A stretch of 64,000 bases of DNA from Rhizobium sp. Q54 (GTDB lineage Bacteria; Pseudomonadota; Alphaproteobacteria; Rhizobiales; Xanthobacteraceae), in assembly GCA_945861265.1 (NCBI GenBank), contig CAMAUC010000005.1:1-64000 (forward strand), read 5' to 3'. The translations under genes and the position numbers were made by a program. The notes below the pieces were generated by a model. It worked only from the letters and a program-made list of their open reading frames with translations, was not told where the DNA came from and ran no database searches. Of the stretch, positions 1-21,416 are shown piece after piece. The first letter of the stretch is position 1. Each line of letters starts with the position of its first letter.

Positions 1-1
1 G

Positions 2-196
2 GCGCGCGGCTATGACCGGACCGGCTATTTTGAAGTCGATACCAACGAACAGCGCTCCTGGACGGTGCAGTTGACCGACACGGCGGAACAACCGCCTGAC
101 CGGCCGCTGCCATCCCGCACTCCGAGCGGTCCATCACGACCGCCGTCCAACGCGCCACAGGCGCCGGCGGACGGCAGAGAAGGTTTGAAGCGATGA
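2..196 (+). CDS. DUF1036 domain protein, C-terminal part (cut by window edge)
   Basis: An open frame enters from the left edge and ends at TGA 194-196. It encodes about 64 residues beginning ARGYDRTGYFEVDT, then ...RSWTVQLTD, then a proline/serine-rich tail. From memory, this resembles the end of DUF1036 proteins, which are often encoded directly upstream of pyk in Rhizobiales. The stop overlaps the pyk ATG in an ATGA arrangement, so the two genes are probably translationally coupled. The start lies outside the window. Its function is not known. The family call rests on a short C-terminal piece plus synteny. Confidence 0.6.
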   Translation, partial: ARGYDRTGYFEVDTNEQRSWTVQLTDTAEQPPDRPLPSRTPSGPSRPPSNAPQAPADGREGLKR

Positions 197-1626
197 GACG
201 TCTGCGCCGCGCCAAGATCGTCGCCACCCTCGGTCCCGCCTCGTCCAGCGCGGAGATGATCGGCAAACTGTTCGCCGCCGGCGCCGACGTGTTCCGCATC
301 AATATGAGTCACACCAGCCAGGACCGCATGCGCGAGTTGATCGCCATGATCCGCGGCGTCGAGGCCGACACCGGCCGGCCGATCGGCATTCTGGTCGATT
401 TGCAGGGACCGAAGCTGCGGCTCGGCACCATTGCCGGCGGCGCGATAGCGGTGAAGACTGGCGACACCGTTGTGCTCGATTCCAATCCGGCGATCGGCGA
501 TGCCTCGCGCGTTTATCTGCCGCATCCGGAAATTCTCGCCGCCGTGCAGGTCGGCCATACGTTGCTGATCGACGACGGCAAGGTGCGGCTGACCGTGACC
601 AAGGTCGAGCCGAACCGCGTGACGACGCGCGTCGAGGTCGGCGGCAAACTGTCCGACCGCAAGGGTGTCAGCGTTCCCGATTCGACGATCCCCCTGTCCG
701 CATTGGCCGAGAAGGACCTGTCCGATCTCGAAGCCGCGCTCGAGGCCGGTATCGACTGGATCGCTTTATCCTTCGTGCAGCGGCCCGAGGACGTCGCCGA
801 AGCCAAGAAGCTGACTCGCGGCCGCGCGCTGCTGATGGCCAAGATCGAAAAGCCGCAGGCGGTGCATCGCCTCGCCGAAATTCTCGAAGTCGCCGATGCG
901 CTGATGGTGGCGCGCGGCGATCTCGGCGTCGAGATGCCGCTGGAGAAGGTGCCCGGCGTGCAGAAGCTGATGACGCGCATGGGCCGTGCCGCCGGCAAGC
1001 CGGTGGTGGTGGCGACGCAGATGCTGGAGTCGATGATCTCCTCGCCGGTGCCGACGCGCGCCGAAGTGTCCGACGTCGCCACGGCGATTTTTGAAGGCGC
1101 CGACGCGGTGATGTTGTCGGCGGAGTCCGCGGCGGGGCAATATCCGATTGAGGCGGTCGGCACCATGAACCGCATTGCCGAGGAAATCGAAAGCGAACAG
1201 CTTTTCCGCGGCATCATCGACGCGCAGCGATCGGTGCCGGAACCGACCGGCGCCGACGCCATCGCCGATGCGGCGCGCCACATCGCCGATACGCTCGATC
1301 TCGCCGCCGTGGTGTGCTGGACCTCATCGGGCTCGACCGGCCTGCGCATGGCGCGCGAGCGGCCGCGCCCGCCCATCGTGGCGCTGTCGCCGAATATCGC
1401 GACCGGCCGCCGGCTCGCCGTGGTGTGGGGCGTGCATTGCGTCGTCACCGAGGACGCGCACGATCAGGACGACATGGTCGACCGCGCCTGCCGCATCGCC
1501 TTCAAGGAGGGCTTCGCCAAGCCGGGCCAGCGCATTATCGTCGTCGCCGGCGTGCCGCTCGGCACACCGGGCGCGACCAACATGCTGCGCATTGCCTATG
1601 TCGGGGCGGAGACGACGGGCGATTGA
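193..1626 (+). CDS. pyk: pyruvate kinase
   Basis: Pyruvate kinase converts phosphoenolpyruvate and ADP to pyruvate and ATP, the last step of glycolysis, in the cytoplasm. The 477-residue length is normal for a bacterial enzyme. The N-terminal barrel carries FRINMSH (residues 34-40) and DLQGPKLRLG (69-78). AKIEKP (216-221) contains the catalytic Lys217 and metal-binding Glu219, and ARGDLG (240-245) supplies the second metal ligand. ATQMLESM and the ADAVMLSAESA block follow in the usual order, and the C-terminal allosteric domain is complete. The ATG overlaps the stop of the upstream DUF1036 gene by 4 bp. The start is followed directly by the RAKIVATLGPAS signature, so it is secure. Confidence 0.97.
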   Translation: MRRLRRAKIVATLGPASSSAEMIGKLFAAGADVFRINMSHTSQDRMRELIAMIRGVEADTGRPIGILVDLQGPKLRLGTIAGGAIAVKTGDTVVLDSNPAIGDASRVYLPHPEILAAVQVGHTLLIDDGKVRLTVTKVEPNRVTTRVEVGGKLSDRKGVSVPDSTIPLSALAEKDLSDLEAALEAGIDWIALSFVQRPEDVAEAKKLTRGRALLMAKIEKPQAVHRLAEILEVADALMVARGDLGVEMPLEKVPGVQKLMTRMGRAAGKPVVVATQMLESMISSPVPTRAEVSDVATAIFEGADAVMLSAESAAGQYPIEAVGTMNRIAEEIESEQLFRGIIDAQRSVPEPTGADAIADAARHIADTLDLAAVVCWTSSGSTGLRMARERPRPPIVALSPNIATGRRLAVVWGVHCVVTEDAHDQDDMVDRACRIAFKEGFAKPGQRIIVVAGVPLGTPGATNMLRIAYVGAETTGD

Positions 1627-1629
1627 GCC

Positions 1630-2049
1630 TCAGGCCCGTGGCAAGGGAGCGTAAAACGTCCCCTCCACTTCGAAGAAGTCATCCTGGTTGAGCGCAGCCA
1701 CTTCAATAATCGAACGGGGCGGACAAGGCCCGTCAGCCCACAGTTCCGATTGCACTTTGTTGACCAGTGGGCGAATGCGTTTCATGTCGGTGACATAGAC
1801 CACCAGACGCACCGCATCGCGCAGACTCGCGCCTTCGGTCTTCGCGATCTGCTGCATATTCAGGAAGGCTTGGCGGATACGGGCTTCGTCGCCCTCCACC
1901 AGAGTATCGGATAGCGGATCGATACCGCGCATGCCGGCGACAAAGACAAAATCGCCCGCACGGGAGCCCAAGCTCCAAGGACCTGTCGGCTTGATCGCAC
2001 CTGTGGGTGAAAGGGTTTTGACGCCATTCGGCGAACGCGTTTCAGTCAT
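1630..2049 (-). CDS. RidA/YjgF-family protein
   Basis: This 139-residue protein belongs to the Rid (YjgF/YER057c/UK114) family. Archetypal RidA hydrolyses reactive enamine/imine intermediates such as 2-aminoacrylate. The family core is visible in FVFVAGMRGIDP, QAFLNMQQIAK and the C-terminal PPRSIIEVAAL, whose Arg corresponds to the carboxylate-binding Arg of active Rid proteins. There is no signal peptide, so it should be cytoplasmic. It converges on pyk with 3 bp between stops and is divergent from the TRAP binding-protein gene. This orientation would allow shared regulation with the TRAP cluster, but that is inference. It may be a RidA paralogue rather than RidA itself. Confidence 0.85.
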   Translation of the reverse strand: MTETRSPNGVKTLSPTGAIKPTGPWSLGSRAGDFVFVAGMRGIDPLSDTLVEGDEARIRQAFLNMQQIAKTEGASLRDAVRLVVYVTDMKRIRPLVNKVQSELWADGPCPPRSIIEVAALNQDDFFEVEGTFYAPLPRA

Positions 2050-2383
2050 TTAATCAACCTACAATAATCGTCGACCCAATTAGAAGCTCTGTTTGCGTGC
2101 GATACAAATGGGCGCAGAAAAGCACAACGTATGGGCGTAATCCGGCGCGCGCCATTTTCTCAAATTTAGCATCCTGAAATGATGATATGCCGAAACGCCC
2201 CGACCTAACCGCCGGATCAATTCGGACCGTGCGGCGATCAATTGCGCTCGTACCGCGACGTCGGATGCTGTAGGCTGCCTCTTAACCCGTTGCAATGATC
2301 GATGTCGGGATTAATGGTGAGTTCGAGCTGACCGCTCTCGAATGTATCCTAGGAAAGAATTCGATCAACTTGGGAGTGAAATT
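2050..2383. other. divergent intergenic region, no gene supported
   Basis: This 334-bp stretch separates the RidA gene from the TRAP binding-protein gene and must hold both promoters. It is less GC-rich than its neighbours near 2050-2120 and 2290-2383. A 71-codon minus-strand frame (2080-2295) has no recognisable motif, low-complexity features or convincing ribosome binding site, so it is not called. No clear operator palindrome was seen. Confidence 0.5.
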
Positions 2384-3454
2384 ATGAAAGTGGGAGCATA
2401 CGCGCTGGCCGCGGCAATTTTATTGTCGGTCGCGCCGGCCTCGGCACAGGAGAAGACTGAAACAATCCGACTGACGATCGCATCGAGCCATCCGCCGGTG
2501 ATCCCGTGGGTGCTTGCGATGAAGAACACCGTTGTGGAAAAATCCAATAAGGCGCTCGAAGCGAAGGGATCGAAATACCGTATCGAGTGGAACGAAGCCT
2601 ATGGCGGCGTGCTCTACAATTTCGAAAACACGATCGAGGCGATCGAACAGGGCATCACCGACTTCGGCTGGGTCGGCACCCTGTGGGAACCAGCCAAGAT
2701 GCCGCTGCAGAACATCATGTTCGCGACGCCCTTCGTCAACGATGATCCGACCATCTCGGTCAAGGTAATGGACGAGATGATGAAGAAGCCGGAATTCCAG
2801 AAGGAGTGGTCGTCGCAGAACGCGATCTACTTCTCCGCGACGACGTCCGATTCCTATCAGCTCTTCACCAAATTCCCGGTCAAGACGCTGGAAGACCTAA
2901 AAGGCCGCAAGATTCTGGCGGCTGGCGCGGTCGGCACCTGGGTCGAAGCCCTCGGCGGCACTTTCGTAAACTCCGGCATTCCGGCGATGTACAATGGCGT
3001 ACAGACCGGCGTCGGCGAAGGTGTGGCACTGATCCCGTCGGGCGCCATTCCGATCAAGCTGCATGAGGTCGCGCCTTACGTGACCTATGTCGACCTCGGC
3101 TCCGTCACTTTCGGCGCTTTCGCGGTCAACAAAAAGCGGTGGGAAAGCCTGCCGAAGGAAGTCCAGGACGTATTGCGGCCGCTCGCAATGGAATACGCGG
3201 CCGAGAATATCAAGATCGTCAAGGCGCGTGAAACGGCGGGCCTGGAGCGCATCAAGAATGAAGGCGCCAAGATTTCGACCTTGCCGCCGGAAGAGCGCAA
3301 ACGCTGGGCCGCGGCGATGCCTAACCTTGCCAAGAAGTGGGTCGAGGAGAACGAGAAGAAGGGCCTGCCGGCGCGGCAGATCATGATCGACTATATGACC
3401 GCAATGCGCGCCGCCGGTGCCAAACCGGCCCGCGATTGGGACAAGGGTCTCTGA
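2384..3454 (+). CDS. TRAP transporter substrate-binding protein (DctP family)
   Basis: This is the periplasmic binding protein of a tripartite ATP-independent transporter, which captures an organic acid and delivers it to the membrane subunits. I chose the ATG at 2384 over an in-frame ATG at 2342. It gives a clean signal peptide (MKVGAYALAAAILL then APASAQ, cleavage near residue 22) and is preceded by GGGAG. The mature protein is about 334 residues, normal for DctP proteins. DctP-like segments include EDLKGRKILAAG and the late SVTFGAFAVNKKRWESLP. The substrate cannot be read from sequence. The next gene is the fused DctQM permease, separated by a hairpin terminator, which suggests the binding protein is made in excess. 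Confidence 0.9.
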   Translation: MKVGAYALAAAILLSVAPASAQEKTETIRLTIASSHPPVIPWVLAMKNTVVEKSNKALEAKGSKYRIEWNEAYGGVLYNFENTIEAIEQGITDFGWVGTLWEPAKMPLQNIMFATPFVNDDPTISVKVMDEMMKKPEFQKEWSSQNAIYFSATTSDSYQLFTKFPVKTLEDLKGRKILAAGAVGTWVEALGGTFVNSGIPAMYNGVQTGVGEGVALIPSGAIPIKLHEVAPYVTYVDLGSVTFGAFAVNKKRWESLPKEVQDVLRPLAMEYAAENIKIVKARETAGLERIKNEGAKISTLPPEERKRWAAAMPNLAKKWVEENEKKGLPARQIMIDYMTAMRAAGAKPARDWDKGL

Positions 3455-3474
3455 TCTACTCCATGCAAGACAAG

Positions 3475-3509
3475 CGGGCGCCCGACCCCTCGGGCGCCCG
3501 AACTTTTTG
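3475..3509 (+). terminator. Rho-independent terminator/attenuator between TRAP binding protein and permease
   Basis: Arms CGGGCGCCCGA (3475-3485) and TCGGGCGCCCG (3490-3500) are perfectly complementary, with a CCCC loop. AACTTTTTG follows. It lies 20 bp after the binding-protein stop and 96 bp before the permease start. Partial read-through would let the binding protein be made in excess over the permease. Confidence 0.85.
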
Positions 3510-3605
3510 TGATAGTTTCCGTCTGGGCGCCACGCATGCGCGACGCTCGTGTTCTAATCCGCGGTTTCACTACCACACCGGCCGGGCCTAAAGGCAATCA
3601 AGACG

Positions 3606-5561
3606 ATGCAGGTTTCTTCCCCTGAGTTAGCGGCCGCTTCAGCGACCGGATTAGTGACCCGCTGCAACGGCGCCTTCACTTTCAGTCTGTCGGTCGTCAG
3701 TTCGGTCTGGATCTTCGCCATCATGGCGCTGGTCTGCGTCGACGTCGCCATGCGCAACATCCTCAATGCGCCGATCTCCGGCGTCGCCGAGTTCATCGCG
3801 CTTTCGGTTCCGGCTTGCGTTTTCCTGCAGTTGCCAAGCTCGATCGCGCAGCGCCGCCTGATGCGCGCCGAATTGGCGATCGACCAATTGGAAGCGACCC
3901 GGCCGCGGGCCGCCTCTGTTTTCAACTTTGTATTCATGCTGATCGGCATGCTGGTGTTCTGGAAGATTCTGGTCTGGGCCTGGCCGGATTTCGAGAAGGC
4001 TTTCAGTTCCGGCGAATATGCCGGCGCGCAAGGCGCCTATACGATCCCGGTCTGGCCATTCAAGCTGACATTGATCGTCGGCTGCGGTCTCGGCTTTCTG
4101 CAATTCGCGCGGCAGCTTGTCCTGGAAGGGATGATCCTGTTCGGCCCGACGAAGCCCGGCTCACACGACGACGGCCGCAGCATCCTGATCGTTGTGGCGT
4201 TCCTCTCCGGCATCGCCGGTTTCGTCGCGTTCCTGTTCCTGGCCGATCCGCGCCCGTTGGAAGTTGGCATTTACTGCCTGGCCGCCATGCTGGTTTTGGT
4301 CCTGCTCGGCATGCCGATCGCGCTGGTCCTGATGAGCCTGTCCTATATCGGCATCTGGATCGCTCGCAGCGGCGAGTTCATGGCGGTCAACACGCTCGGA
4401 CTCGCCGCGTCGTCGGCGGTCTCTTCTTACGAATTTGGCGTCATCCCGCTGTTCATCATGATGGGCCTGGTGCTGGAAAAGGCCGATGTCGGCCGCGACG
4501 CTTTCGCCGCCGCCGCCAGCCTGCTGCGCCGCGTGCGCGGCGGGCTCGGCATTGCGACGGTTGCCGCCAATGCGATATTCGCTGCGATCGTCGGCAGTTC
4601 GATCGCCTCCGCCGCCGTGTTCAGCCGGATCGCCGTGCCGCAAATGGTGTCGCACGGCTACACCAAGAAATTCTCGGTCGGTTGCGTGGCCGGCTCGTCG
4701 GTGCTCGGCATGCTGATTCCGCCGAGCCTGCTGCTCATCATCTACGGCCTGATGGCCGAGGAATCGGTCGGCAAACTGTTCGTCGCCGCCGTCGTCCCCG
4801 GCATCATTCTCGCGATTGCCTTCGCGATTGCAATCTATGCCATGACCTGGCTGATGCCGCGTTTCGTCGGCAATACGCGCGCAGCGAGCGACATCCCGTC
4901 CTCCACACCGCGGGAGCTATTATCCCAGCTCGGGCCGATTGCCCTGCTGGTGGTGCTGGTGATCGGCGGCATCTATGGCGGCATTTTCACGCCGACCGAG
5001 GCCGCCGCCGTCGGCACCGCCTTCGCGTTCATTATTGCTTTGGCAAAACGGCGAATAAACTGGACGGCCTTCAGGGAGATCGTACTGGAATCCGGCTATG
5101 TCTCGGCAGCCATTTTGTTCCTGATCGTCGCCGCCAATCTTTACACGAGACAAGTGGCGCTCACCGGCATTCCGTCCAAGGTGGCGAATTGGGTGGCCAG
5201 CGCCGGCCTCGAAATGGGCGGTTTCCTCACCGTCTACTTCGTCATCTTGTTCCTCCTCGGCATGATCCTCGATTCGGTCTCGATCATGCTCATCATGCTG
5301 CCGATCATGATGCCGGTGCTCGCCGTACTCGGCGGCGACAAGATCTGGTTCGGCGTCATCACCGTCATCGTGGTCGAAATCGGGCTGCTGACGCCGCCCT
5401 TCGGGCTGTCGGTTTATGTGGTCAAAGGCGTGCTGCCGAAGGATTTCGTTTCGCTGCCGACGATATTCGCCGGCGCGCTGCCCTTCGTCCTGGTGATGAT
5501 CCTGGTATCGCTCCTGTTAATGGTCGTGCCCGAACTCAGCCTGTGGCTGGTGCGGCTCTAG
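3606..5561 (+). CDS. TRAP transporter fused permease DctQM
   Basis: A 651-residue membrane protein in which the small (DctQ, 4 TM) and large (DctM, about 12 TM) TRAP subunits form one chain. Residues about 25-185 are the DctQ part, including CVDVAMRNILNAPISGVAEF and RRLMRAELAIDQL. A linker near FGPTKPGSHDDGR leads to the DctM part from about residue 195. This part shows VIPLFIMMGLVLEKAD, AIVGSSIASAAVFSRIAVP and LGMLIPPSLLLIIYGLMAEE, typical of the gating and transport domains. Such fusions are known in the family. It follows the binding-protein gene and precedes a cytochrome b561 and an LVIVD protein, suggesting import coupled to an oxidative step. Confidence 0.93.
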   Translation: MQVSSPELAAASATGLVTRCNGAFTFSLSVVSSVWIFAIMALVCVDVAMRNILNAPISGVAEFIALSVPACVFLQLPSSIAQRRLMRAELAIDQLEATRPRAASVFNFVFMLIGMLVFWKILVWAWPDFEKAFSSGEYAGAQGAYTIPVWPFKLTLIVGCGLGFLQFARQLVLEGMILFGPTKPGSHDDGRSILIVVAFLSGIAGFVAFLFLADPRPLEVGIYCLAAMLVLVLLGMPIALVLMSLSYIGIWIARSGEFMAVNTLGLAASSAVSSYEFGVIPLFIMMGLVLEKADVGRDAFAAAASLLRRVRGGLGIATVAANAIFAAIVGSSIASAAVFSRIAVPQMVSHGYTKKFSVGCVAGSSVLGMLIPPSLLLIIYGLMAEESVGKLFVAAVVPGIILAIAFAIAIYAMTWLMPRFVGNTRAASDIPSSTPRELLSQLGPIALLVVLVIGGIYGGIFTPTEAAAVGTAFAFIIALAKRRINWTAFREIVLESGYVSAAILFLIVAANLYTRQVALTGIPSKVANWVASAGLEMGGFLTVYFVILFLLGMILDSVSIMLIMLPIMMPVLAVLGGDKIWFGVITVIVVEIGLLTPPFGLSVYVVKGVLPKDFVSLPTIFAGALPFVLVMILVSLLLMVVPELSLWLVRL

Positions 5562-5685
5562 CAATGCGCTGATACAAGCCGCGCGCGCCAGTTTTCACAG
5601 GGCCAAAACCGTCGCCGCCCGAAGTTAGCTGATAGCAATCAAAGCTCGCCGAACTGTTAATATTGATATTCGACCAGACAGTTGG

Positions 5686-6414
5686 ATGGAGAGGACAGTG
5701 CCTGGAACTCAACTTCACATTCCGACCGAAGTGACCCTGGATTTTCTGGGAATGACGATTCCCGTTCATTGGGATTACCACGCCATCCTGATGGTCTCGG
5801 TCTGGTTCGTGCTGGTGCCGATCTGCATCATCATCATCCGCTTCGGCAAACCAAAGCCGACTTTGACCGGCCTGCACCGGCAGGTCGCCGTCAAACACAT
5901 CGAGTGGTGGTGGTTCAGCATTCACAAATACGGGCTGATTTTTTCGATCAGCCTCGCGCTCGCCGGCGCGATCGTGGCGGTGACGGTCAGCCGTGGCTTC
6001 AGCGGCTCGCTGCATTCGCTGTTCGGTCTTGCAACCGTTGCGCTGGGATGTTTGCAGATCATGGGCGGCTGGTTGCGCGGCAGGCACGGCGGCAAGAACT
6101 ACTATCTCGCCGATCCGAACGATCCGAAGACCTGGTTCGGCGACCATTACAACATGACCAAACGCCGGCGCATCTTCGAGGCCTATCACAAGACCGCCGG
6201 CTATTTCGTTTTCTTCTTCGCGGCCGGCGCGGTCACCAGCGGCCTGATGCAATATCCGATGCCGGGGCTGGGCGAATTCATCGTCGCGATGGTAGTCATC
6301 GCGTTTCTGGTGTCGATCGTGCTGGAATACAAAGGTTACCGCTACGACGGCTACCGCGCGGCGCATGGCTACACCATGGATGCGCCCTTCAACAAAGAAC
6401 GCGAATTTCTGTAA
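5686..6414 (+). CDS. cytochrome b561 domain membrane protein
   Basis: A 242-residue protein with about five hydrophobic segments (near 30-51, 82-102, 108-128, 171-186 and 196-214). It has the four-histidine pattern of the cytochrome b561 fold: His32 (DYHAILMV), His80 (SIHKYG), His110 (SLHSLFG) and His168 (AYHKTAG). In this family, two hemes are bound by two such His pairs and move electrons across the membrane. No signal peptide is seen. The loop 131-160 (RGRHGGKNYY...FGDHYN) is polar and His-containing. It starts 124 bp after the permease and ends 35 bp before the LVIVD gene. It is probably the electron-transfer partner of that protein, which is inference. The donor and acceptor are unknown. 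Confidence 0.8.
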   Translation: MERTVPGTQLHIPTEVTLDFLGMTIPVHWDYHAILMVSVWFVLVPICIIIIRFGKPKPTLTGLHRQVAVKHIEWWWFSIHKYGLIFSISLALAGAIVAVTVSRGFSGSLHSLFGLATVALGCLQIMGGWLRGRHGGKNYYLADPNDPKTWFGDHYNMTKRRRIFEAYHKTAGYFVFFFAAGAVTSGLMQYPMPGLGEFIVAMVVIAFLVSIVLEYKGYRYDGYRAAHGYTMDAPFNKEREFL

Positions 6415-6449
6415 CACCGCTACGCCGCGCGATATCGGGGACGACACAC

Positions 6450-7709
6450 ATGTCCAGTCAAGATCTGCCCAAGCCGGACTTTGCCAAAAACATGAAATTG
6501 ATCGGCCACACCGATCAGGGCGGCCGGCCGGATGGCGTGCAGGTGATGGTCAACAAGGGCCATGCCTATGTCGGCCACATGTTTTCCAAGGGCTTCAGCG
6601 TCATCGACGTGCGCGATCCGCGCAATCCAAAACCGGTCAAATATGTGCCGGCGCCGCCCAATACATGGACCATTCATCTGCAGACGCATGGCGACCTGTT
6701 GCTGGTGATCAACGCCATGGACATGTTCGCGGCGGAGGAATTCCAGGACGAGCGCGCGTACTACATCGGCTCGCACGCCGAGAAGGCCGAGCATACCTAC
6801 GCCGAGCCCAAGAAGCGCAACTGGACCGCCGGCATGGTGGTCTATGATATTTCCAGGCCGGAAGAGCCGCGGCAGATCGGCTTCATGCCGGTGGAAGGCG
6901 GCGGCATTCATCGCATCTGGTATACGGGCGGCCGCTGGGCCTATGTCTCGGCGATGCTCGACGGCTTCACCGATTACATCTTCATGACCATCGACATGGC
7001 CGATCCGACCAAGCCGAAGGAAGCCGGCCGCTACTGGCTGCCCGGCATGAACACCGCCGCCGGCGAGACGCCGACCTGGGCGGCGAACCGGCGCTTCGGC
7101 CTGCATCATGCCATCGTCCATGGCGACACCGCTTACGGCGCCTGGCGCGACGGCGGGCTGGTGATGATGGATGTGTCGGACCGCAGCAAGCCGACGCTCA
7201 TCAAGCATCACAACTGGTCGCCGCCCTTCGGCGGCGGCACGCATAACTGCCTGCCGTTGCCCGACCGCGATCTGCTGGTGGTGGCCGACGAGGCCGTGCT
7301 CGACAATTGCGAGGACGGCATCAAATACACCTGGATGTTCGATATCCGCCAGCCGACCAATCCGGTGAGCATCTCAACCTTCCCGACGCCGGACGAGGCG
7401 GACTACTGCAAAAAGGGCGCGCATTTCGGCCCGCACAATATTCACGAGAACCGGCCTGACACCTTTGTCAGTTCGGAGCTGATTTTCGCGACCTATCAGA
7501 ACGCCGGCATTCGCGTGTTTGACATCCGCGATGCGTTCAGGCCGGAGGAAATCGCGGCTTTCGTTCCGCCGACACCCAATCGTCTGGTCGATGGGCGTCT
7601 GAACCGGACCAAAGTGATTCAGTCCTGCGACGTGCTGGTGACCGCCGACGGCGTCGTTTACAGCACCGACTTCAACGGCGGCCTGTACATTCTGGAGTAT
7701 CAGGGTTGA
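6450..7709 (+). CDS. LVIVD-repeat beta-propeller protein with one His per blade
   Basis: A 419-residue protein built from about seven repeats of the form x-V-x-D-[IV] followed by a Pro-containing turn. Examples are SVIDVRDPRNPKP (50), VVYDISRPEEP (130), MTIDMADPTKP (179), VMMDVSDRSKP (238), WMFDIRQPTNP (295), RVFDIRDAFRP (355) and a closing LYILEY (412). Between repeats, a His recurs at similar places: WTIHLQ (His76), GGIHRI (His154), GLHHAI (His219/220), GTHNCL (His265) and GPHNIH (His329/332). There is no signal peptide or Tat motif, so it is predicted cytoplasmic. The start is an ATG after GGGGA. LVIVD proteins have no established general activity. A metal-centred oxidoreductase working with the upstream cytochrome b561 is my inference. 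Confidence 0.8.
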   Translation: MSSQDLPKPDFAKNMKLIGHTDQGGRPDGVQVMVNKGHAYVGHMFSKGFSVIDVRDPRNPKPVKYVPAPPNTWTIHLQTHGDLLLVINAMDMFAAEEFQDERAYYIGSHAEKAEHTYAEPKKRNWTAGMVVYDISRPEEPRQIGFMPVEGGGIHRIWYTGGRWAYVSAMLDGFTDYIFMTIDMADPTKPKEAGRYWLPGMNTAAGETPTWAANRRFGLHHAIVHGDTAYGAWRDGGLVMMDVSDRSKPTLIKHHNWSPPFGGGTHNCLPLPDRDLLVVADEAVLDNCEDGIKYTWMFDIRQPTNPVSISTFPTPDEADYCKKGAHFGPHNIHENRPDTFVSSELIFATYQNAGIRVFDIRDAFRPEEIAAFVPPTPNRLVDGRLNRTKVIQSCDVLVTADGVVYSTDFNGGLYILEYQG

Positions 7710-7767
7710 GGTATGGCAATGCCGTATGCCGGGTTTCGCCAGGCCCGGCCGGCGCGGAGGAAATTCG

Positions 7768-9576
7768 ATGGCAGCGCCGATCAATATCGACGCCTATAGC
7801 GACGCGCTGGTCGTGCTGGGGACGGCCGGTATCGTTGTTCCAGTTGTCCGCCGGCTGGGCATCAGTCCGGTGCTGGGCTATCTCACCGCCGGCGCCTTGC
7901 TCGGCCCGCTCGGTCTCGGCTCGCTGATCGGCGTCTTGCCGTTCCTGTATTGGGTGACCGTCGTCGACGCCAAGAATGTGGCCGGCATCGCCGAGCTTGG
8001 CGTCGTCTTCCTGCTGTTCCTGATCGGCATGGAGTTGACATTCGAGCGCCTCAAGGCGATGCGTCGGCTGGTGTTCGGGCTCGGCAGCCTGCAGATCGTA
8101 CTATCCAGCGCCGTCATCGGCGCCGTTGCTTTTCAGTTCGGCAATTCGCCCGCGGTGGCGATCATCCTCGGCGCCTGTCTCGCTCTCTCGTCGACCGCGA
8201 TCGTCATCGAGGTGCTTTCTGACCAGGGCCGCCTTTCGACCATCGCGGGCCGCGCCAGTTTCTCTGTGTTGCTGGCGCAAGATCTGGCTGTCATTCCGAT
8301 CCTGCTCTTCGTATCCATCCTCGGCGTCAGCACCGGCGATTCGGTCGTAACAAGCCTGCTATTCGCGTTGATGAACGCGGCGATAGCGGTCGGCGCGATC
8401 GTCATCGTCGGCCGCCTGCTGCTTCGGCCGCTATTTCGCATGGTCGCGTCTGCCGGGTCGTCGGAACTGTTCGTAGCCGCCGCGCTGTTCGTGATTATCG
8501 GCACCGGCGTTGCCGCCGCCATGGCCGGTATGTCGATGGCACTGGGTGCCTTCATTGCCGGTCTGGTGTTGGCCGAAACCGAATTCCGCAAGGCGATCGA
8601 AGCGACCATCGCCCCTTTCAAAGGACTGTTGCTCGGACTTTTCTTTTTTACCGTTGGCATGAACATCGACGTGCGCGAATTGGCCCGCGATCCGATCTTG
8701 CTGCTTGCCTCCGTTGCCGGACTGATCGGCATCAAGTCGGTTCTGCTGACCGGCCTCGCCCGTCTCTTTCGCCTGCCCTGGCCAGCGGCCATCGAAACCG
8801 GATTTCTGCTTGGCCCGGGCGGCGAATTCGCCTTCGTCGGCATAGGCATGGCGGCCGCTCTCGGAGTGATCGACGCACGGGTATCGAGTTTCGTTCTGGC
8901 GGTGACGTCAATCACGATGGCGCTCATTCCGGCTTTGTCCTTGCTCGCTCGGCGAATGGCGCCGCGATTCAGCGAGGCCAAGGCGCTCGACCCGGAACTG
9001 GCGGTCGCGCCCGAATACTTGACCCAACATGCCATCGTCATCGGCCATGGCCGCGTCGGCCAGGTCGTCTGCGCGCTGCTCGACCAGCACGACATTCGCT
9101 ATCTCGCCGTCGACAACGACGCGCGGGCGGTGCCGGAACAGCGCCGCAGCGGCCGCGACGTCTATTACGGCGATGCGAGCACTCCGGATTTTCTACGCAG
9201 TTGCGGCGTCATGGACGCCAAGGCGGTGATCGTCACGGTCGCCGCGCCCGATGCGATCGACGAAATCGTGCAACAGGTGCGCGCGCTGCGCTCCGACATC
9301 GTCATCGTGTCGCGCGCCCGAGACGCCGCTCATGCGCGCCATCTTTATGCCATCGGCGTCACCGACGCGGTGCCAGAAACCATCGAAGCCAGCCTGCAAC
9401 TGTCCGAAGCCGCGCTGTTCGGGCTCGGCCGCGCCGCCGGACCGGTCATCGCCTCGATCCATGAAAAGCGCGACGAATTCCGCCGCGAGTTGCAGCAGGC
9501 CGCCGGCAAGGTTCAGGCTGAGAATACTTATGCCGTGCGCCGTAAGACGCGACCACCGTCAAATACGGCGCCCTGA
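7768..9576 (+). CDS. Kef/CPA2-type cation:proton antiporter with C-terminal RCK (TrkA-N) domain
   Basis: A 602-residue monovalent cation:proton antiporter-2 family protein. The N-terminal two-thirds is a multi-helix antiporter domain including GVVFLLFLIGMELTF, ALSSTAIVIEVLSDQGRL and FLLGPGGEFAFVGIG. A cytoplasmic Rossmann/TrkA-N domain follows from about residue 418 (HAIVIGHGRVGQVV, GDAST). The likely job is K+/H+ or glutathione-gated K+ efflux. I chose the ATG at 7768, preceded by GGAGGAAA, rather than an ATG 42 bp upstream. It lies 58 bp after the LVIVD gene on the same strand and may be co-transcribed. No ancillary KefF/KefG gene is adjacent. Confidence 0.88.
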   Translation: MAAPINIDAYSDALVVLGTAGIVVPVVRRLGISPVLGYLTAGALLGPLGLGSLIGVLPFLYWVTVVDAKNVAGIAELGVVFLLFLIGMELTFERLKAMRRLVFGLGSLQIVLSSAVIGAVAFQFGNSPAVAIILGACLALSSTAIVIEVLSDQGRLSTIAGRASFSVLLAQDLAVIPILLFVSILGVSTGDSVVTSLLFALMNAAIAVGAIVIVGRLLLRPLFRMVASAGSSELFVAAALFVIIGTGVAAAMAGMSMALGAFIAGLVLAETEFRKAIEATIAPFKGLLLGLFFFTVGMNIDVRELARDPILLLASVAGLIGIKSVLLTGLARLFRLPWPAAIETGFLLGPGGEFAFVGIGMAAALGVIDARVSSFVLAVTSITMALIPALSLLARRMAPRFSEAKALDPELAVAPEYLTQHAIVIGHGRVGQVVCALLDQHDIRYLAVDNDARAVPEQRRSGRDVYYGDASTPDFLRSCGVMDAKAVIVTVAAPDAIDEIVQQVRALRSDIVIVSRARDAAHARHLYAIGVTDAVPETIEASLQLSEAALFGLGRAAGPVIASIHEKRDEFRRELQQAAGKVQAENTYAVRRKTRPPSNTAP

Positions 9577-9698
9577 GGGTAATATTGCACTTCCGCGCCT
9601 GGATAATTCACGTCCGCGCCGGATATGGCGAGTTTCGGGTGAACGAACTTGCGCGACCCGCATTGCCCTAATGTCTAATACCAGACGGAGGGCGACCG

Positions 9699-10076
9699 AT
9701 GGAACAAGCAACACCGTTCAAGCCGATTGCGTTGGTGGTCGAGGACGACGAAATCCAGCGAGAATTGGTCGCGCTGCTGCTGGAAGAATGCGACATGGGG
9801 GTAATTCAGTGTGGAAGCGCCGAAACCGCGCTGGAAGTTCTCAACAAGCTCGGAACGTCGCTGTCGATGCTCTACGCCGATGTTAATCTGAGCGGCGACA
9901 TGAACGGCGTGGAACTCGCGCACATCGCAACAAAGGAATACCCGGACATCCATATCGTTGTGACATCCGGCAAAGCCCTCCCGAAAGACCTCCCGCATCA
10001 GGCTTTGTTCATGCCGAAGCCCTGGCTAACGCTTGACCTGTTGCGCGAGGCCGAGCGGTCTCAAATCGCACATTAA
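9699..10076 (+). CDS. single-domain response regulator (receiver only)
   Basis: A 125-residue CheY-like receiver with no output domain. The acidic pocket EDDE (residues 15-18), phospho-acceptor Asp61 (LYADVNL), the TS pair at 89-90 and Lys107 (MPKPW) are all present, so phosphorylation is expected. The start is supported by GGAGGG about 7 bp upstream. No histidine kinase lies nearby, so its partner is unknown. Its stop overlaps the stop of the convergent hydrolase gene by 4 bp. It could feed a distant phosphorelay or a general-stress kinase; nothing in the sequence decides this. Confidence 0.85.
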   Translation: MEQATPFKPIALVVEDDEIQRELVALLLEECDMGVIQCGSAETALEVLNKLGTSLSMLYADVNLSGDMNGVELAHIATKEYPDIHIVVTSGKALPKDLPHQALFMPKPWLTLDLLREAERSQIAH

Positions 10077-11029
10077 CGCGCGGCCATTTCATCGATGGCC
10101 CGCACGATGTCATCCGCCGCCACATAGTGCACCATGTGGCCGACGCCCGGCAGCACAGTGAGCGTGGCCTGCGGCACTTGCCGCGCGATCGCGCGCGAAT
10201 GAATGTCGGTATAGACGACCGGATCCTTGTCGCCTGAGATAATCGTCACGGGCATTTTCAATTCGCCGTAGCGCGGCGCCTGCTGGCGCACGAAAGCTTT
10301 CAGGCCGGCGAGGTCCTGCGCATTGGCAATGAACTCGTTCGGCCGCAGCAGTAGCGCAACGCCGGTGTCCGGTCCGTAGTCCGTCGGCGGTATGTCCGGG
10401 CGAAACACGCCGGCGACACCGGGCTTCAGCATGAAATAACCGGACGGCAGAATGAGCGTGTGCGCGATCAGCGGTCCTAACACCGGCAGCGCCACCACAT
10501 CGTTGATCCAGCCAATGCCGCCGGGCCAGGGGTGCGTGACCGGCGCGAGCAGAACGAGCGCGCGTATCTCCGCCGGATAGGCCAGCGCATAGGCGGTGGC
10601 GAGCGCGCCCGCCCAGGAATGACCCAGCACGATCGGCCGCGCGACGCCGAGCGCGACAAGCGCCTGATGGATGAGCGTGGCCTGCGCCGCGGGCGAGGCA
10701 TCGGCGGCGGCGCCGGGGCGGTCGCTCCAGCCGTGACCGGGCCGGTCAATCAAAATGACGCGGTAGCGCGCGGCGAGCCGGTCGCCGAGCGCGACCTGCA
10801 TATCGCGCAGATTGCCGCTGGCGCCATGCAGCAACACGACCGGCGGCGCGTCGGCGCGCCCCAGTTCCACGACGTGCAGGCGGCCGCCAGCGACATCGAC
10901 AAAGCGGCCGGCCGGCGGATTGGCGAGCTCGATCGCAATGGTGCCGGCGAAAGTCAGCGCGGCGAGCGCCGCGAGGACGACGACGGTCAGGAGGATTAGC
11001 ATTCGGAGGAAACGCAGGGGACCGGCCAC
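10073..11029 (-). CDS. alpha/beta hydrolase, membrane-anchored or secreted
   Basis: A 318-residue alpha/beta-hydrolase-fold protein. Residues 7-31 form a hydrophobic segment (MLILLTVVVLAALAALTFAG), either an uncleaved anchor or a signal peptide. The oxyanion segment is LLHGASGN (67-74), and the nucleophile elbow is GHSWAG with Ser138. An acid follows in SGDKDP (about 266-271), and the catalytic His lies in GVGHMVH near the C-terminus. The triad is therefore complete. The substrate cannot be assigned; esterases, lipases and haloalkane-type hydrolases share this pattern. It converges with the receiver gene, overlapping by 4 bp. Confidence 0.85.
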   Translation of the reverse strand: MAGPLRFLRMLILLTVVVLAALAALTFAGTIAIELANPPAGRFVDVAGGRLHVVELGRADAPPVVLLHGASGNLRDMQVALGDRLAARYRVILIDRPGHGWSDRPGAAADASPAAQATLIHQALVALGVARPIVLGHSWAGALATAYALAYPAEIRALVLLAPVTHPWPGGIGWINDVVALPVLGPLIAHTLILPSGYFMLKPGVAGVFRPDIPPTDYGPDTGVALLLRPNEFIANAQDLAGLKAFVRQQAPRYGELKMPVTIISGDKDPVVYTDIHSRAIARQVPQATLTVLPGVGHMVHYVAADDIVRAIDEMAAR

Positions 11030-11100
11030 ATTCAGTCAATACGGTCCAACGATGACATTGGATGACTCGACGCGCGATATTTTTGGCCCGCGCACTTTTG

Positions 11101-11155
11101 TTGTTTTGTCGCGTTTTCTTCACGCGAACCGGTACCCACTTCGCTCGAAAACGCT
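11101..11155. repeat. palindromic intergenic repeat, copy A (55 bp, identical to copy B)
   Basis: These 55 bases are identical to 35766-35820. The arms GCGTTTTC and GAAAACGC flank a core ACCGGTACCCACTT. The repeat abuts the TPR gene stop codon (11156-11158). It belongs to a five-member family in this window sharing ACCGGTnCCCACTT. Confidence 0.85.
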
Positions 11156-11773
11156 CTAAATGTCGCGGCCTTCGACCTTTTCCTGCAGCGTCTTCACCAG
11201 ATCGGGAATGCGCGGCAGCTTCGGATAGACGGCGAGCGCGCGGCGATAGACCTCAAGCGCCTGTTTGTCGTCCCCGACATCCTGCAGGATCATGCCGAGC
11301 CCCATCAGCGCGCCGAAATGGCGCGGCTCGCGCTTGAGCACTTCACGGATATCGGCAATCGAATGGCCGTAATCCTTCTTGCCGTAATAAATGGTCGCGC
11401 GCCGGTTCCAGGCTTCGATGTAGTCCGGCTTGATCCGGACAATCCCGTCGAGCAGCTTGATGGCGAGATCGGTGTCCTTTGCTTCGATCGCGGTGCGCAC
11501 CCGCGTCATCAACAAATTGGCGGTGTCGCTCGGCGACACGACCCACAGCGCCCAGATGCGCTGCTCGATCGCCTTGGCGCTGGTCTCATCGGGCGCCACT
11601 TTCAGCGCGCCGAACAGGAAATCGAGATTTTTGGTGCGGTCGCCACGCGCGACCTTGGGCAGATTTTTCGGCGACGGCGGTTCAAGCCAGCTGCCCGGTT
11701 CCGCCCCAGCGGGCGCGGCAAAGCTCACGGCCAAAGCCGCTGCGAAAATGGGCGCGAGGAATCGCATGTCCAT
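11156..11773 (-). CDS. secreted TPR-repeat protein
   Basis: A 205-residue protein with a signal peptide (MDMRFLAPIFAAALAVSFAAPAG, cleavage near 24) and tetratricopeptide repeats from about residue 90. Repeat-like segments are AIKLLDGIVRIKPDYIEAWN, HSIADIREVLKREPRHFGAL and QALEVYRRALAVYPKLPRI. TPR proteins act as protein-interaction scaffolds in the periplasm or membrane; the partner is unknown. It lies about 100 bp downstream of rpmJ on the same strand. The stop directly touches palindromic repeat A, which may form its mRNA 3' end. Confidence 0.85.
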   Translation of the reverse strand: MDMRFLAPIFAAALAVSFAAPAGAEPGSWLEPPSPKNLPKVARGDRTKNLDFLFGALKVAPDETSAKAIEQRIWALWVVSPSDTANLLMTRVRTAIEAKDTDLAIKLLDGIVRIKPDYIEAWNRRATIYYGKKDYGHSIADIREVLKREPRHFGALMGLGMILQDVGDDKQALEVYRRALAVYPKLPRIPDLVKTLQEKVEGRDI

Positions 11774-11873
11774 GGGCGGAGATTAATCGCTCCGCGCCGC
11801 AAGGCAAATCAACGGCTTTTGAACGGCTACGGCCTGCCTGAAGGCCAGGCGGCTGGGAGCCTTAGCCAGAGCC

Positions 11874-11999
11874 TTAGCCCTGACGGGCCTTAAAGCGGGG
11901 ATTCGTCTTGTTAATGATAAAAACGCGGCCCTTGCGCCGGACAATCTTGTTGTCCCGGTGGCGGCCACGCAACGATTTCAATGAGTTACGAACTTTCAT
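11874..11999 (-). CDS. rpmJ: 50S ribosomal protein L36
   Basis: A 41-codon gene reading [18 protein letters not shown] and ending NPRFKARQG. This matches the C-minus (zinc-free) form of L36, which lacks the Cys/His zinc ligands of the other form. It is rich in Arg and Lys, as expected for a small subunit of the large ribosomal particle. It stands alone rather than in the main ribosomal operon, which is usual for this paralogue in alphaproteobacteria. GAGAG lies just upstream of the ATG. Confidence 0.95.
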
Positions 12000-12146
12000 C
12001 ACAGTCTCTCAATGCAGGTTTGGAGGGTTCATAAGGGTCATGGGGGCCCCTGTCAACGCGAAGTGTCCCGGGCGGTGGTGGCCGCGCCTGCCCTGCATTA
12101 CAGTCCGCCACCCGAAGGCCTCCCAGGATACCAGTGAGCCCCAGCC

Positions 12147-19121: not shown

Positions 19122-20426
19122 ATGATGACGCAAGAGGAAAATGACCTGCTGTGCCGCGTCGAGGGCGATGCGCCGATGGGCCAGATCATGCGCCGGCACT
19201 GGATCGCCGCCTGCCTGTCCGAGGAAGTGGCGCAAGCCGACGGCGCGCCGATCAAGGTCCGCCTGCTCGGCGAGGACCTCGTCGTCTTCCGCGACAGCAA
19301 TGGCCGCGTCGGCGTGCTCGACGAATATTGTTCGCACCGGCGCGCCTCGCTGGTGTTCGCGCGCAACGAGGATTGCGGCCTGCGCTGCCTCTATCACGGC
19401 TGGAAGTTCGACGTTGACGGCAACATCGTCGAGATGGCGTCGGAGCCGGCCAACAGCCTCATTCCCGATCGCGTGAAGCACAAATCCTATCCGGCATGCG
19501 AAGCTGGCGGATTTGTCTGGTGCTACATGGGGCCGGCTGACGAAATGCGCGATTTCGAACCGCCGGCCTTCGCGCCGACGAGGGACGCCAAGGTCAGCGC
19601 CACCAAGGTGCGGGTCAACTGCAATTGGGCGCAAATTCTGGAAGGCCAGATCGACTCGGCGCATTCGTCCAGTCTGCATTCCTCCGACATGTTGCCGGCG
19701 AATGTCGACGTCGCCAAGGCAACCGATTCCAGCTGGCTGCGGCCCTCGACCGACAAGGCGCCGCGCTTCCAGATCGAACGCACCAGCTACGGCTTTCGCT
19801 ACGCGGCGATCCGCCGGCCGATCAGGGACGAGGAAACGCACGATTACATCCGCACGACGGTCTATATTGCGCCCTATACGGCGCTCATTCCGCCGAACAG
19901 CTCCTACAACGTCGCCACCGTGCTGACGCCGGAAGACGACAACACGACGATCTTCTATTTCATCGCCTGGGCCGGCGCCGACAAGCCCGGCATCGACGCC
20001 GACACCTGGCGCAAATTCAACAAACTGCAATGGGGCGTCGACGTCGATGAACATTTCAACGGCGTGCGTAATCGCGACAATCTCTACGGCCAGGATCGCG
20101 CGGCGATGAAGGCCGGCAATTTCACCGGCATCAGCGGCATTCCCAATCAGGATATCGCCATGTGGGAATCGATGGGGCCGATCAGCGACCGCTCGAAGGA
20201 CCGCGTCGGCGCCAGCGATACCGCGGTGGTCGCCTTCCGCCGCCTGATGGTCGAAGCGGCCCGCAATATGCAAAGCAGCGGAACTGCCATCGGCACTACC
20301 GAGCCGCGCATCGCCCACGCCACCATCAGCTCTTATGAAGGCGTGGTGCCGAAAACGACGAACTGGCGCAGCCTCGGCGGCGGCAGCGAGGCCCCGCTCG
20401 AACGGGTCAAACAGACGGCCAAATAA
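19122..20426 (+). CDS. Rieske non-heme iron oxygenase, large subunit (phthalate 4,5-dioxygenase-like)
   Basis: A 434-residue aromatic-ring hydroxylating oxygenase. The Rieske [2Fe-2S] ligands are C70-x-H72 (EYCSHR) and C89-x2-H92 (RCLYHGWKF). The mononuclear iron site is D178-x2-H181-x4-H186 (QIDSAHSSSLH). Length and the N-terminal DAPMGQIMRRHWIAACLSEE resemble the one-component-alpha phthalate/3-chlorobenzoate group, which dihydroxylates or demethylates aromatic carboxylates using electrons from a separate reductase. No reductase gene is present here. The ATG follows GGGAG. An ABC binding-protein gene starts 33 bp downstream, making a likely two-gene operon. Confidence 0.9.
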   Translation: MMTQEENDLLCRVEGDAPMGQIMRRHWIAACLSEEVAQADGAPIKVRLLGEDLVVFRDSNGRVGVLDEYCSHRRASLVFARNEDCGLRCLYHGWKFDVDGNIVEMASEPANSLIPDRVKHKSYPACEAGGFVWCYMGPADEMRDFEPPAFAPTRDAKVSATKVRVNCNWAQILEGQIDSAHSSSLHSSDMLPANVDVAKATDSSWLRPSTDKAPRFQIERTSYGFRYAAIRRPIRDEETHDYIRTTVYIAPYTALIPPNSSYNVATVLTPEDDNTTIFYFIAWAGADKPGIDADTWRKFNKLQWGVDVDEHFNGVRNRDNLYGQDRAAMKAGNFTGISGIPNQDIAMWESMGPISDRSKDRVGASDTAVVAFRRLMVEAARNMQSSGTAIGTTEPRIAHATISSYEGVVPKTTNWRSLGGGSEAPLERVKQTAK

Positions 20427-20459
20427 CCGATAAAAATAAATCTCTGGGAGGATAACACG

Positions 20460-21416
20460 ATGAACAGCAAGACAATTGCCTGCACTTTTGCCGCACTATC
20501 GCTGCTGGCCGGCATTTCAACGGCGGCGGCGGATGACACCATCAAGCTCGCCGTCGGTCAGCGCGGCAACTGGGACACATCGATGTCCGAAGTCGGCCAA
20601 CTGGCGGGCATCTTCAAGAAGCACGGTCTGGTTCTCGAGATCGTCTATACGCAGGGCGCCGGCGAGACGCAGCAGGCGGTGATTTCCGGCAGCGTCGACA
20701 TCGGCATCGCCGCCGGCGTCATGGGCGTGCTCAGCGCCTATTCCAAGGGCGCGCCGGTGCGCGTGATCGGCGCCGAGACCACCGGCGCCGGCGACCTTTA
20801 CTGGTATGTGAAGGCGGACTCGCCGATCAAGACACTGAAGGACACCGACGACAAGATCCTGGCCTATTCGACCAACGGCTCGTCGACGCACGGCGTCGTC
20901 ACTGCCTTTACGAAAGAATACAATTTGAAGGCCAAGCTGACCGCCATGGGCGGTCCCGCCGCCAATATCACGGCGGTGATGTCGGGACAGATCGATGTCG
21001 GCTGGGCGGCGCCGCCCTTCGGCCTCGACCAGCTCGACGCCAAGCAGATCCGCATCATCGCCACCGGCAACGACGCTTCCGTGTTCAAGGGTCAGACGGT
21101 GCGGCTCAACATCGCCAATGCCGATTATCTCAAGACCCATAAGGATGTGGTTGCGCGTTACATGAAGGCGTATCGCGAGACGGTGAATTATATGTACACC
21201 GACCCCGCCGCGCTGAAAGTCTATGCCGACTGGCTGAAAATCACCGAAGCCAAGGCGAAGCGCACGCGCGACGACTTCTTCCCCCGCGCATCGGTCGAGC
21301 CGGACAAGATCACCGGCCTCGATACCATCGTGAAGGACGCGGTGGCGCTCAAATTCACCGCCAGCGAGCTGACCAAGGCGCAGCTCGACGACCTGATCCA
21401 GATCCCGCCGCGCTGA
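20460..21416 (+). CDS. NitT/TauT-type ABC substrate-binding protein
   Basis: A 318-residue periplasmic binding protein with a signal peptide (MNSKTIACTFAALSLLAG then TAAADD) and a type-2 fold. Typical segments are QLAGIFKKHGLVLEIVYTQG, AVISGSVDIGIAAGV and VMSGQIDVGWAAPPFGLD. Relatives bind nitrate, sulfonates, pyrimidine precursors or aromatic acids such as phthalate. Here the preceding oxygenase suggests the substrate may be the aromatic acid. GGGAGGA lies 7 bp before the ATG. No permease or ATPase gene is adjacent, so it is an orphan that must use components encoded elsewhere. A good terminator follows. Confidence 0.88.
   Translation: MNSKTIACTFAALSLLAGISTAAADDTIKLAVGQRGNWDTSMSEVGQLAGIFKKHGLVLEIVYTQGAGETQQAVISGSVDIGIAAGVMGVLSAYSKGAPVRVIGAETTGAGDLYWYVKADSPIKTLKDTDDKILAYSTNGSSTHGVVTAFTKEYNLKAKLTAMGGPAANITAVMSGQIDVGWAAPPFGLDQLDAKQIRIIATGNDASVFKGQTVRLNIANADYLKTHKDVVARYMKAYRETVNYMYTDPAALKVYADWLKITEAKAKRTRDDFFPRASVEPDKITGLDTIVKDAVALKFTASELTKAQLDDLIQIPPR

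Follow-up and report, generated by a model that had tools for sequence, protein, structure and literature searches.

Among the closest described relatives of the genes considered here is mtrY of enterobacteria, which follows a probable methylthioribose ATP-binding cassette (ABC) transporter (mtrACB–mtrY) and is called a mystery in a 2011 report (PMC3228920). The same gene order, with an 'LVIVD repeat family protein' in last place, appears for Klebsiella in a second paper (PMC5566837), and mtrB is called methylthioribose binding protein in a third (PMC7843439). A further relative, by fold, is a phosphotriesterase of Sphingobium TCM1, whose solved structure is 5hrm; the title of its paper, as cited in PMC11656708, names a seven-bladed propeller with a binuclear metal centre. 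Here we describe, in 64,000 nucleotides of Rhizobium sp. Q54 (contig CAMAUC010000005.1, positions 1 to 64,000; this whole stretch is called the window below), a gene for an LVIVD protein directly downstream of a gene for a b561-like membrane protein. We propose that this b561–LVIVD pair is an operon of alphaproteobacteria and a functional unit, in which a cytoplasmic putative metal hydrolase and a di-heme b561 protein would serve one pathway; this is the best explanation overall, and we give it a probability of roughly 45%.

A conserved b561–LVIVD gene pair

The b561-like gene (5686–6414, + strand) and the LVIVD gene (6450–7709, + strand) were followed through two samples: the best 80 of the 320 LVIVD loci that matched (the named loci, with L numbers), and a family sample of 296 genomes (G numbers), in which cut-offs of E ≤ 1e-50 for b561 and E ≤ 1e-195 for LVIVD were applied. 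Some genomes occur in both (for example L030/G290, L034/G545 and L036/G506), and the resulting counts overlap and are not independent. A b561 gene accompanies LVIVD in 19 of the 80 named loci, within the fetched stretch in 18 of them and cut by a contig end in L044. Across the family sample b561 was found in 13 genomes and LVIVD in 26, and the two adjoin on the same strand in ten of the 13 b561 genomes; in one of these ten, G634, a 2-hydroxyacid dehydrogenase gene lies between them. The LVIVD genes of these ten genomes are also the ten best-scoring LVIVD matches of the sample, and the 16 further LVIVD genes (67–74%) occur in 13 genomes without a b561 match and, on other contigs, in G293, G313 and G374. 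In L032 and L033 the two genes share a four-base ATGA overlap.

In a tree of 67 LVIVD proteins, from which 25 near-identical enterobacterial rows were omitted and in which group labels were set by hand from the neighbour clustering, the 21 b561-linked rows need two changes, against a mean of 18.2 for shuffled labels. Two loci without a detected partner, L048 on a short contig and L050, where b561 was not found, fall inside the b561-linked clade. Judged from their sequences, the b561-linked LVIVD proteins are nearly one clade. Records titled Rhizobiales/Hyphomicrobiales, Rhodospirillales and Rhodobacteraceae all contain the pair, with several arrangements of the genes; what is conserved is b561 and LVIVD as a pair, and the pairing is old.

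The LVIVD protein and its putative metal site

The product of the LVIVD gene is a COG5276/MtrY-like beta-propeller (PF08309). Pfam sees a single LVIVD repeat where the initial annotation counted seven; the propeller itself is upheld by an AlphaFold2 model built from 48 homologues (predicted local distance difference test score, pLDDT, 88.5; predicted template modelling score 0.90), which consists nearly entirely of strands. A search for a signal peptide found no hydrophobic N-terminus, unlike in the DctP protein encoded further upstream. The LVIVD protein should therefore be cytoplasmic, as predicted from its sequence, and export, which the initial annotation had named as an argument against joint function with b561, is not indicated.

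Two alignments were used to identify conserved positions. Alignment A1 has 48 sequences, ten of them enterobacterial: the window protein and those of 47 named loci out of the 80. Alignment A2 has 19 divergent rows, made up of the window protein, 13 loci from among the 18 others of the initial searches, and five named loci; L010, L012, L013, L014 and the duplicate L019 were omitted. H154, H219, H265, E281, H329 and D394 are identical in all 19 rows of A2, and the His and Glu positions are invariant in all 48 of A1 as well. These His residues are absent from the distant L013 and L014 and partly kept in L012; invariance is thus a property of A2 and A1 and not of every LVIVD protein. The invariant His and Glu residues sit at strand starts in the model and should line the central channel, where H154, H219, H265, E281 and H329 form the predicted metal site.

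Comparison with solved structures points to a hydrolase. The top match of the model among Protein Data Bank (PDB) folds was 5hrm (Foldseek, E 3.2e-17), the next protein being a WD40 propeller at 1.4e-9, nearly eight orders worse; a sequence profile of the 19 divergent members likewise finds 5hrm, at E 2.9e-17. By model and Foldseek the fold is thus of the type of this enzyme, Sb-PTE. We take the metal ligands of Sb-PTE to be E201, H258, H389, E407 and H475. Fragments of 5hrm were aligned with the LVIVD protein, the residue types at these presumed ligand places being checked with an offset of 87, and H258 falls on H154, H389 on H265 and E407 on E281. Sequence and model together make a metal-dependent hydrolase of the cytoplasm the most likely identity of the LVIVD protein.

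The window protein is also 63–66% identical, over its whole length, to 32 enterobacterial proteins encoded directly after a sugar-type binding-protein gene. We identify these as MtrY from their place after sugar-type ABC genes and from the 2011 report (PMC3228920). By full-length similarity the window protein belongs with them, a family call made through gene position and literature; by position, behind mtrACB and among methionine-salvage genes, it does not.

The b561-like membrane protein

The upstream partner was recognized by neither Pfam nor NCBIfam, and nine of 18 homologues match PF03188 weakly, below the Pfam cut-off (best E 0.13). The name b561 was given because of four invariant His residues, a model with five helices, and the public record of one homologue, 'cytochrome b561 domain-containing protein'. 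In alignment A3 (the window protein plus those of 17 named b561 loci out of 19, without the near twin L030 and the truncated L044), His 32, 80, 110 and 168 are invariant in all 18 sequences, and the model has five long helices at residues 29–53, 72–102, 109–129, 159–189 and 193–215; the four conserved His thus lie on neighbouring membrane helices, as expected of b561 proteins. Positive charges are concentrated in the loops 54–71 and 130–158 and at the C-terminus, which would place His 32 and 110 on the outer and His 80 and 168 on the inner side of the membrane; the inner-side loops are conserved. No match was found among PDB sequences. We presume the protein to belong to an FRRS1-like subgroup.

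Proposed function and alternatives

In the mechanism that we propose, a small organic compound would be imported by whichever transporter the lineage has, importers of several unrelated classes having apparently been recruited beside LVIVD genes; in the window lineage, an upstream tripartite ATP-independent periplasmic (TRAP) importer may share or replace the import role. The LVIVD protein, a propeller of the MtrY type, would have its central channel occupied by one or two metal ions, and its reaction would most likely be hydrolysis of the imported compound or of a product of it. The b561 protein, as a transmembrane di-heme protein, would serve the electron side of the same pathway, probably passing electrons between a cytoplasmic dehydrogenase of the pathway and the quinone pool or periplasm, and not receiving them from LVIVD. 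Its electron partners are perhaps the dehydrogenases encoded at the b561 locus in relatives.

Several findings count against this proposal. As far as their contigs reach, three of the 13 b561 genomes have no intact adjacent LVIVD gene: in G293 (L026, G293:C70) the intact b561 gene is followed only by an interrupted LVIVD remnant, and in G313 and G374 the contig ends about 240 bases past b561, with no LVIVD start in that stretch. These genomes would suit a hitch-hiking cluster without joint function, an explanation that we consider unlikely because the pair is kept across alphaproteobacterial orders and in several gene orders. On the structural side, the best of five AlphaFold runs for b561 reached a pLDDT of 82.5 and two reached about 50 to 54, and the model had no match among PDB folds at E below 0.001. 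The profile of the 48 close LVIVD members alone finds 5hrm at 1.1e-4 only. Nor is the metal site the same as that of Sb-PTE, whose E201 aligns with W73, and whose H475 aligns with the non-invariant H332, three residues from the invariant H329. Three of the five presumed ligands are accordingly matched, with H475 ambiguous between H332 and H329; fold and most of the site are common and the ligand set is not identical, so the LVIVD protein is not assignable as Sb-PTE. Finally, the window genome (G000; 3.75 Mb in 133 contigs) holds 48 TctC and 19 DctP binding-protein genes, and chance alone would put a TctC or DctP gene within 5 kb of about 16% of positions picked at random in it. Given this frequency, LVIVD and importers are firmly linked in the ABC operons and less firmly at the alphaproteobacterial loci.

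A last point against the proposal is that eight of the 19 members of A2 match the Pfam SBP56 family weakly (best 2.4e-6), which could indicate that LVIVD/MtrY proteins are metal-dependent oxidases or dioxygenases, for example of methylthio compounds, with chemistry like that of SBP56 methanethiol oxidase and with b561 taking the electrons. The four invariant His residues agree with such an enzyme, as do the sulfur setting of the enterobacterial genes (mtnK and mtnA) and, on two rhizobial plasmids, SfnB genes close to LVIVD. The window protein itself has no SBP56 match at E 0.1, and when profiles were compared by hhalign with five SBP56 proteins, only 77 columns aligned, at 88% probability, and these belong to the general propeller repeat. 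SBP56 kinship was therefore set aside as generic repeat similarity, with the weak Pfam matches remaining; Sb-PTE being a far better match, we regard an SBP56-like oxidase as quite improbable.

The pair could also be more intimately joined than in a shared pathway. The b561 protein and the MtrY-type propeller might form a membrane complex of these two proteins; its metal centre, of the phosphotriesterase fold, would act on an imported metabolite by redox or redox-gated chemistry and have the di-heme b561 for electron partner. Such a complex is unlikely, on a par with hitch-hiking; if real, it would be the first activity for the MtrY/LVIVD family and a new kind of partner for a b561 protein.

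The TRAP and RidA genes form a lineage-specific block

The initial annotation had placed the pair in a larger module, with a TRAP importer, and its description of the genes was accurate: gene calls and Pfam confirm four + strand genes in the order DctP, DctQM, b561 and LVIVD, with gaps of 151, 124 and 35 bp, and a divergent RidA gene. DctP (2384–3454, + strand; PF03480, 102 bits) is a TRAP substrate-binding protein with a signal peptide, DctQM (3606–5561, + strand; PF04290 and PF06808) a fused TRAP permease, and the RidA-family gene (1630–2049, − strand; PF01042) lies upstream of both. Between DctP and DctQM is a GC-rich, terminator-like hairpin (3475–3500, + strand; 11 pairs and a T tail, folding energy −29.6 kcal/mol, z −6.4), which may limit read-through from DctP. 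With so strong a hairpin separating DctP from DctQM, a single transcript of four genes is not necessary. No regulatory RNA was matched by Rfam in window positions 1–12000. The nearest solved relatives of DctP are 4nap and 4pgn (E about 2e-17), which we take to be binders of indole-type acids, the similarity being too low for substrate inference.

Comparison by blastn of window positions 1–12000 showed that RidA, DctP and DctQM are the contents of a block (1615–5684) that the window shares with L030 (97% identity over 11 kb). L031 and L037 lack it at the same site, and there b561 and LVIVD come directly after pyruvate kinase. The breakpoints lie at 1614/5685 in L031 and 1618/5679 in L037, whose LVIVD proteins are 96% and 82% identical to that of the window. 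By parsimony, the block was probably gained in the window lineage and not lost in L031 and L037. A KefC-type antiporter gene on the other side of the pair (window 7757–9683) is likewise missing from L031 at that position, which means that the pair has seen change on either side between these lineages. DctP genes of at least 75% identity occur in seven of 120 related genomes: the window's own, its near twin G290, and G293, G310, G314, G305 and G357. Around the five orthologues in the latter genomes, no b561, LVIVD or RidA gene was present among the called genes of stretches of 5.7–11 kb. Among the 80 named loci, both the window's TRAP and a RidA gene beside the pair recur in L030 alone.

The claimed module thus holds for its b561–LVIVD half, conserved in ten of 13 b561 genomes, and largely fails, by the refuting outcome that the initial annotation itself had named (a pair without conserved TRAP neighbours), for its TRAP half; the window's TRAP adjoins the pair only here and in its 97% identical relative, and it looks like a recent neighbour of the pair and not part of it. 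A TRAP importer as a fixed member was accordingly rejected, on the block's absence from L031 and L037 and on the five orthologous TRAP loci without the pair, and so was the suggested handling of imine or enamine products by RidA, a gene of the inserted block.

These findings bear on the explanation first offered for the locus, in which the TRAP system imports an organic acid, LVIVD oxidises it, the electrons exit through b561 and RidA removes reactive imines. The same-strand order in the window and L030, the lack of a signal peptide in LVIVD, the conserved inner-side loops of b561 and the other TRAP genes near LVIVD in L044, L047, L050 and L110 would fit it. Against it stand the lineage-specific nature of the TRAP and RidA genes and the five TRAP orthologue loci without the pair. 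Pfam sees no redox cofactor domain in the window LVIVD protein, and the best solved relative is a metal hydrolase; oxidation of an imported substrate by LVIVD has no positive support beyond the pairing and the weak SBP56 similarity. We rank this explanation as the least probable of those considered.

Further along the window, a gene for a Rieske oxygenase with a LigXa-type C-terminal domain is followed by one for an NMT1-type binding protein (19122–21413) and then by a molybdopterin oxidoreductase gene (22325–24832), presumably NapA-like.

Neighbours of LVIVD genes

Neighbouring genes were clustered, and Pfam and NCBIfam were run on cluster representatives. The company of LVIVD genes differs by clade. 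A sugar-type binding-protein gene of one cluster lies directly upstream of LVIVD in all 32 enterobacterial loci (L078–L109), and the fetched stretches of these loci include the mtnK cluster in 18 and the mtnA cluster in 16; loci of the Burkholderia type carry a different sugar-type ABC system. The enterobacterial binding protein is a relative of 4ry8 (E 5e-50), which we take to be a methylthioribose binder, although a look-up did not confirm this. Methylthioribose is kept as a lead by analogy with these relatives. As the substrate in the window lineage it is unsupported: mtnA lies on another contig (C77), and neither a methionine-salvage nor a sugar-type ABC gene stands beside LVIVD.

Within the b561 clade, a Zn-dependent alcohol dehydrogenase gene occurs at most five genes away in nine loci (L034, L036, L039, L041, L042, L043, L045, L047 and L049), and some loci have a 2-hydroxyacid dehydrogenase, tripartite tricarboxylate transporter (TTT) genes or LIV-type ABC genes. 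TTT genes are also found near LVIVD in L201–L203. TRAP systems unlike the window's (DctP 28–32% identical) lie near LVIVD in L044, L047 and L050, and one more distant still in the plasmid locus L110; they stand immediately before LVIVD in L044 and L050, and close to it on the opposite strand in L047 and L110. L052 has a distant TRAP on the other strand, some 2.5 kb past LVIVD. LVIVD genes thus often adjoin some importer, be it ABC, TTT or a TRAP unlike the window's, which agrees with the import half of the initial annotation. Because the LVIVD gene follows importers of several classes, and since propellers often act as scaffolds, the protein might be no enzyme at all but a sensor or scaffold linking importers with the enzymes of the pathway, with b561 acting alone. 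His and Glu residues invariant in 19 of 19 members, at strand starts that presumably line the channel, would be unusual for a scaffold, and we hold this role to be slightly more doubtful than an SBP56-like oxidase.

A mainly alphaproteobacterial LVIVD group has a flavin adenine dinucleotide (FAD) monooxygenase gene upstream, and the best solved relative of one such monooxygenase is 2,6-dihydroxypyridine hydroxylase (E 2e-48). The two genes overlap by four bases in L063 (8778–11266) and abut in L057 (1016–3511), and they form a second recurrent LVIVD pairing, without b561. The window genome encodes two further LVIVD proteins. A paralogue (56%; G000:C30:26823–28031; L002, L165), which has 25 rows of 52–60% identity among relatives, lies between an aromatic-acid major facilitator superfamily transporter gene and a TIM-barrel gene, the latter followed by a Kelch-repeat protein gene; the third protein (42%; G000:C7:24326–25237; L003, L166) is encoded after NMT1-type ABC genes and before a CobW-type gene.

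Significance

The LVIVD family is known, but without an assigned function; new here are its pairing with b561 and its phosphotriesterase-like putative site, on neither of which was a report found in the open-licence literature. In print, what mtrY does has been an open question since 2011 (PMC3228920), and we found no later work on it in the same literature. Now that a five-residue metal site is predicted, a structural relative is named and b561 is seen to be a conserved partner, the mtrY question becomes a plain enzyme test. The LVIVD protein may, moreover, reveal a kind of native enzyme related to the flame-retardant hydrolase Sb-PTE.

Comparison with known systems

The TRAP genes of the window are unremarkable, with DctP, DctQ and DctM domains all above Pfam cut-offs, and the locus differs from other TRAP transporters of the DctP/DctQM type by the hairpin that parts DctP from DctQM. 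Like cytochrome b561 proteins, the membrane protein has four His distributed over four of its five predicted helices, and in the topology suggested by its charges each side of the membrane has two of them; it differs in scoring below the Pfam threshold and in having no solved relative by sequence or fold; no extra domain was seen. Sb-PTE, the haloalkylphosphorus hydrolase of Sphingobium TCM1 (5hrm, 5ioj), has fold and profile in common with LVIVD, and three of its presumed ligands align; the LVIVD protein has W73 in place of E201 and an additional invariant H219, and identity in the structural alignment is 17–19%. The closest likeness is to MtrY of enterobacterial mtrACBY, which matches the window protein over its full length and has the same His and Glu positions. 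The enterobacterial loci, whose fetched stretches contain no b561, have the probable methylthioribose transporter and, in many cases, mtnK and mtnA, whereas the window has b561 and, in this lineage only, this particular TRAP system beside LVIVD.

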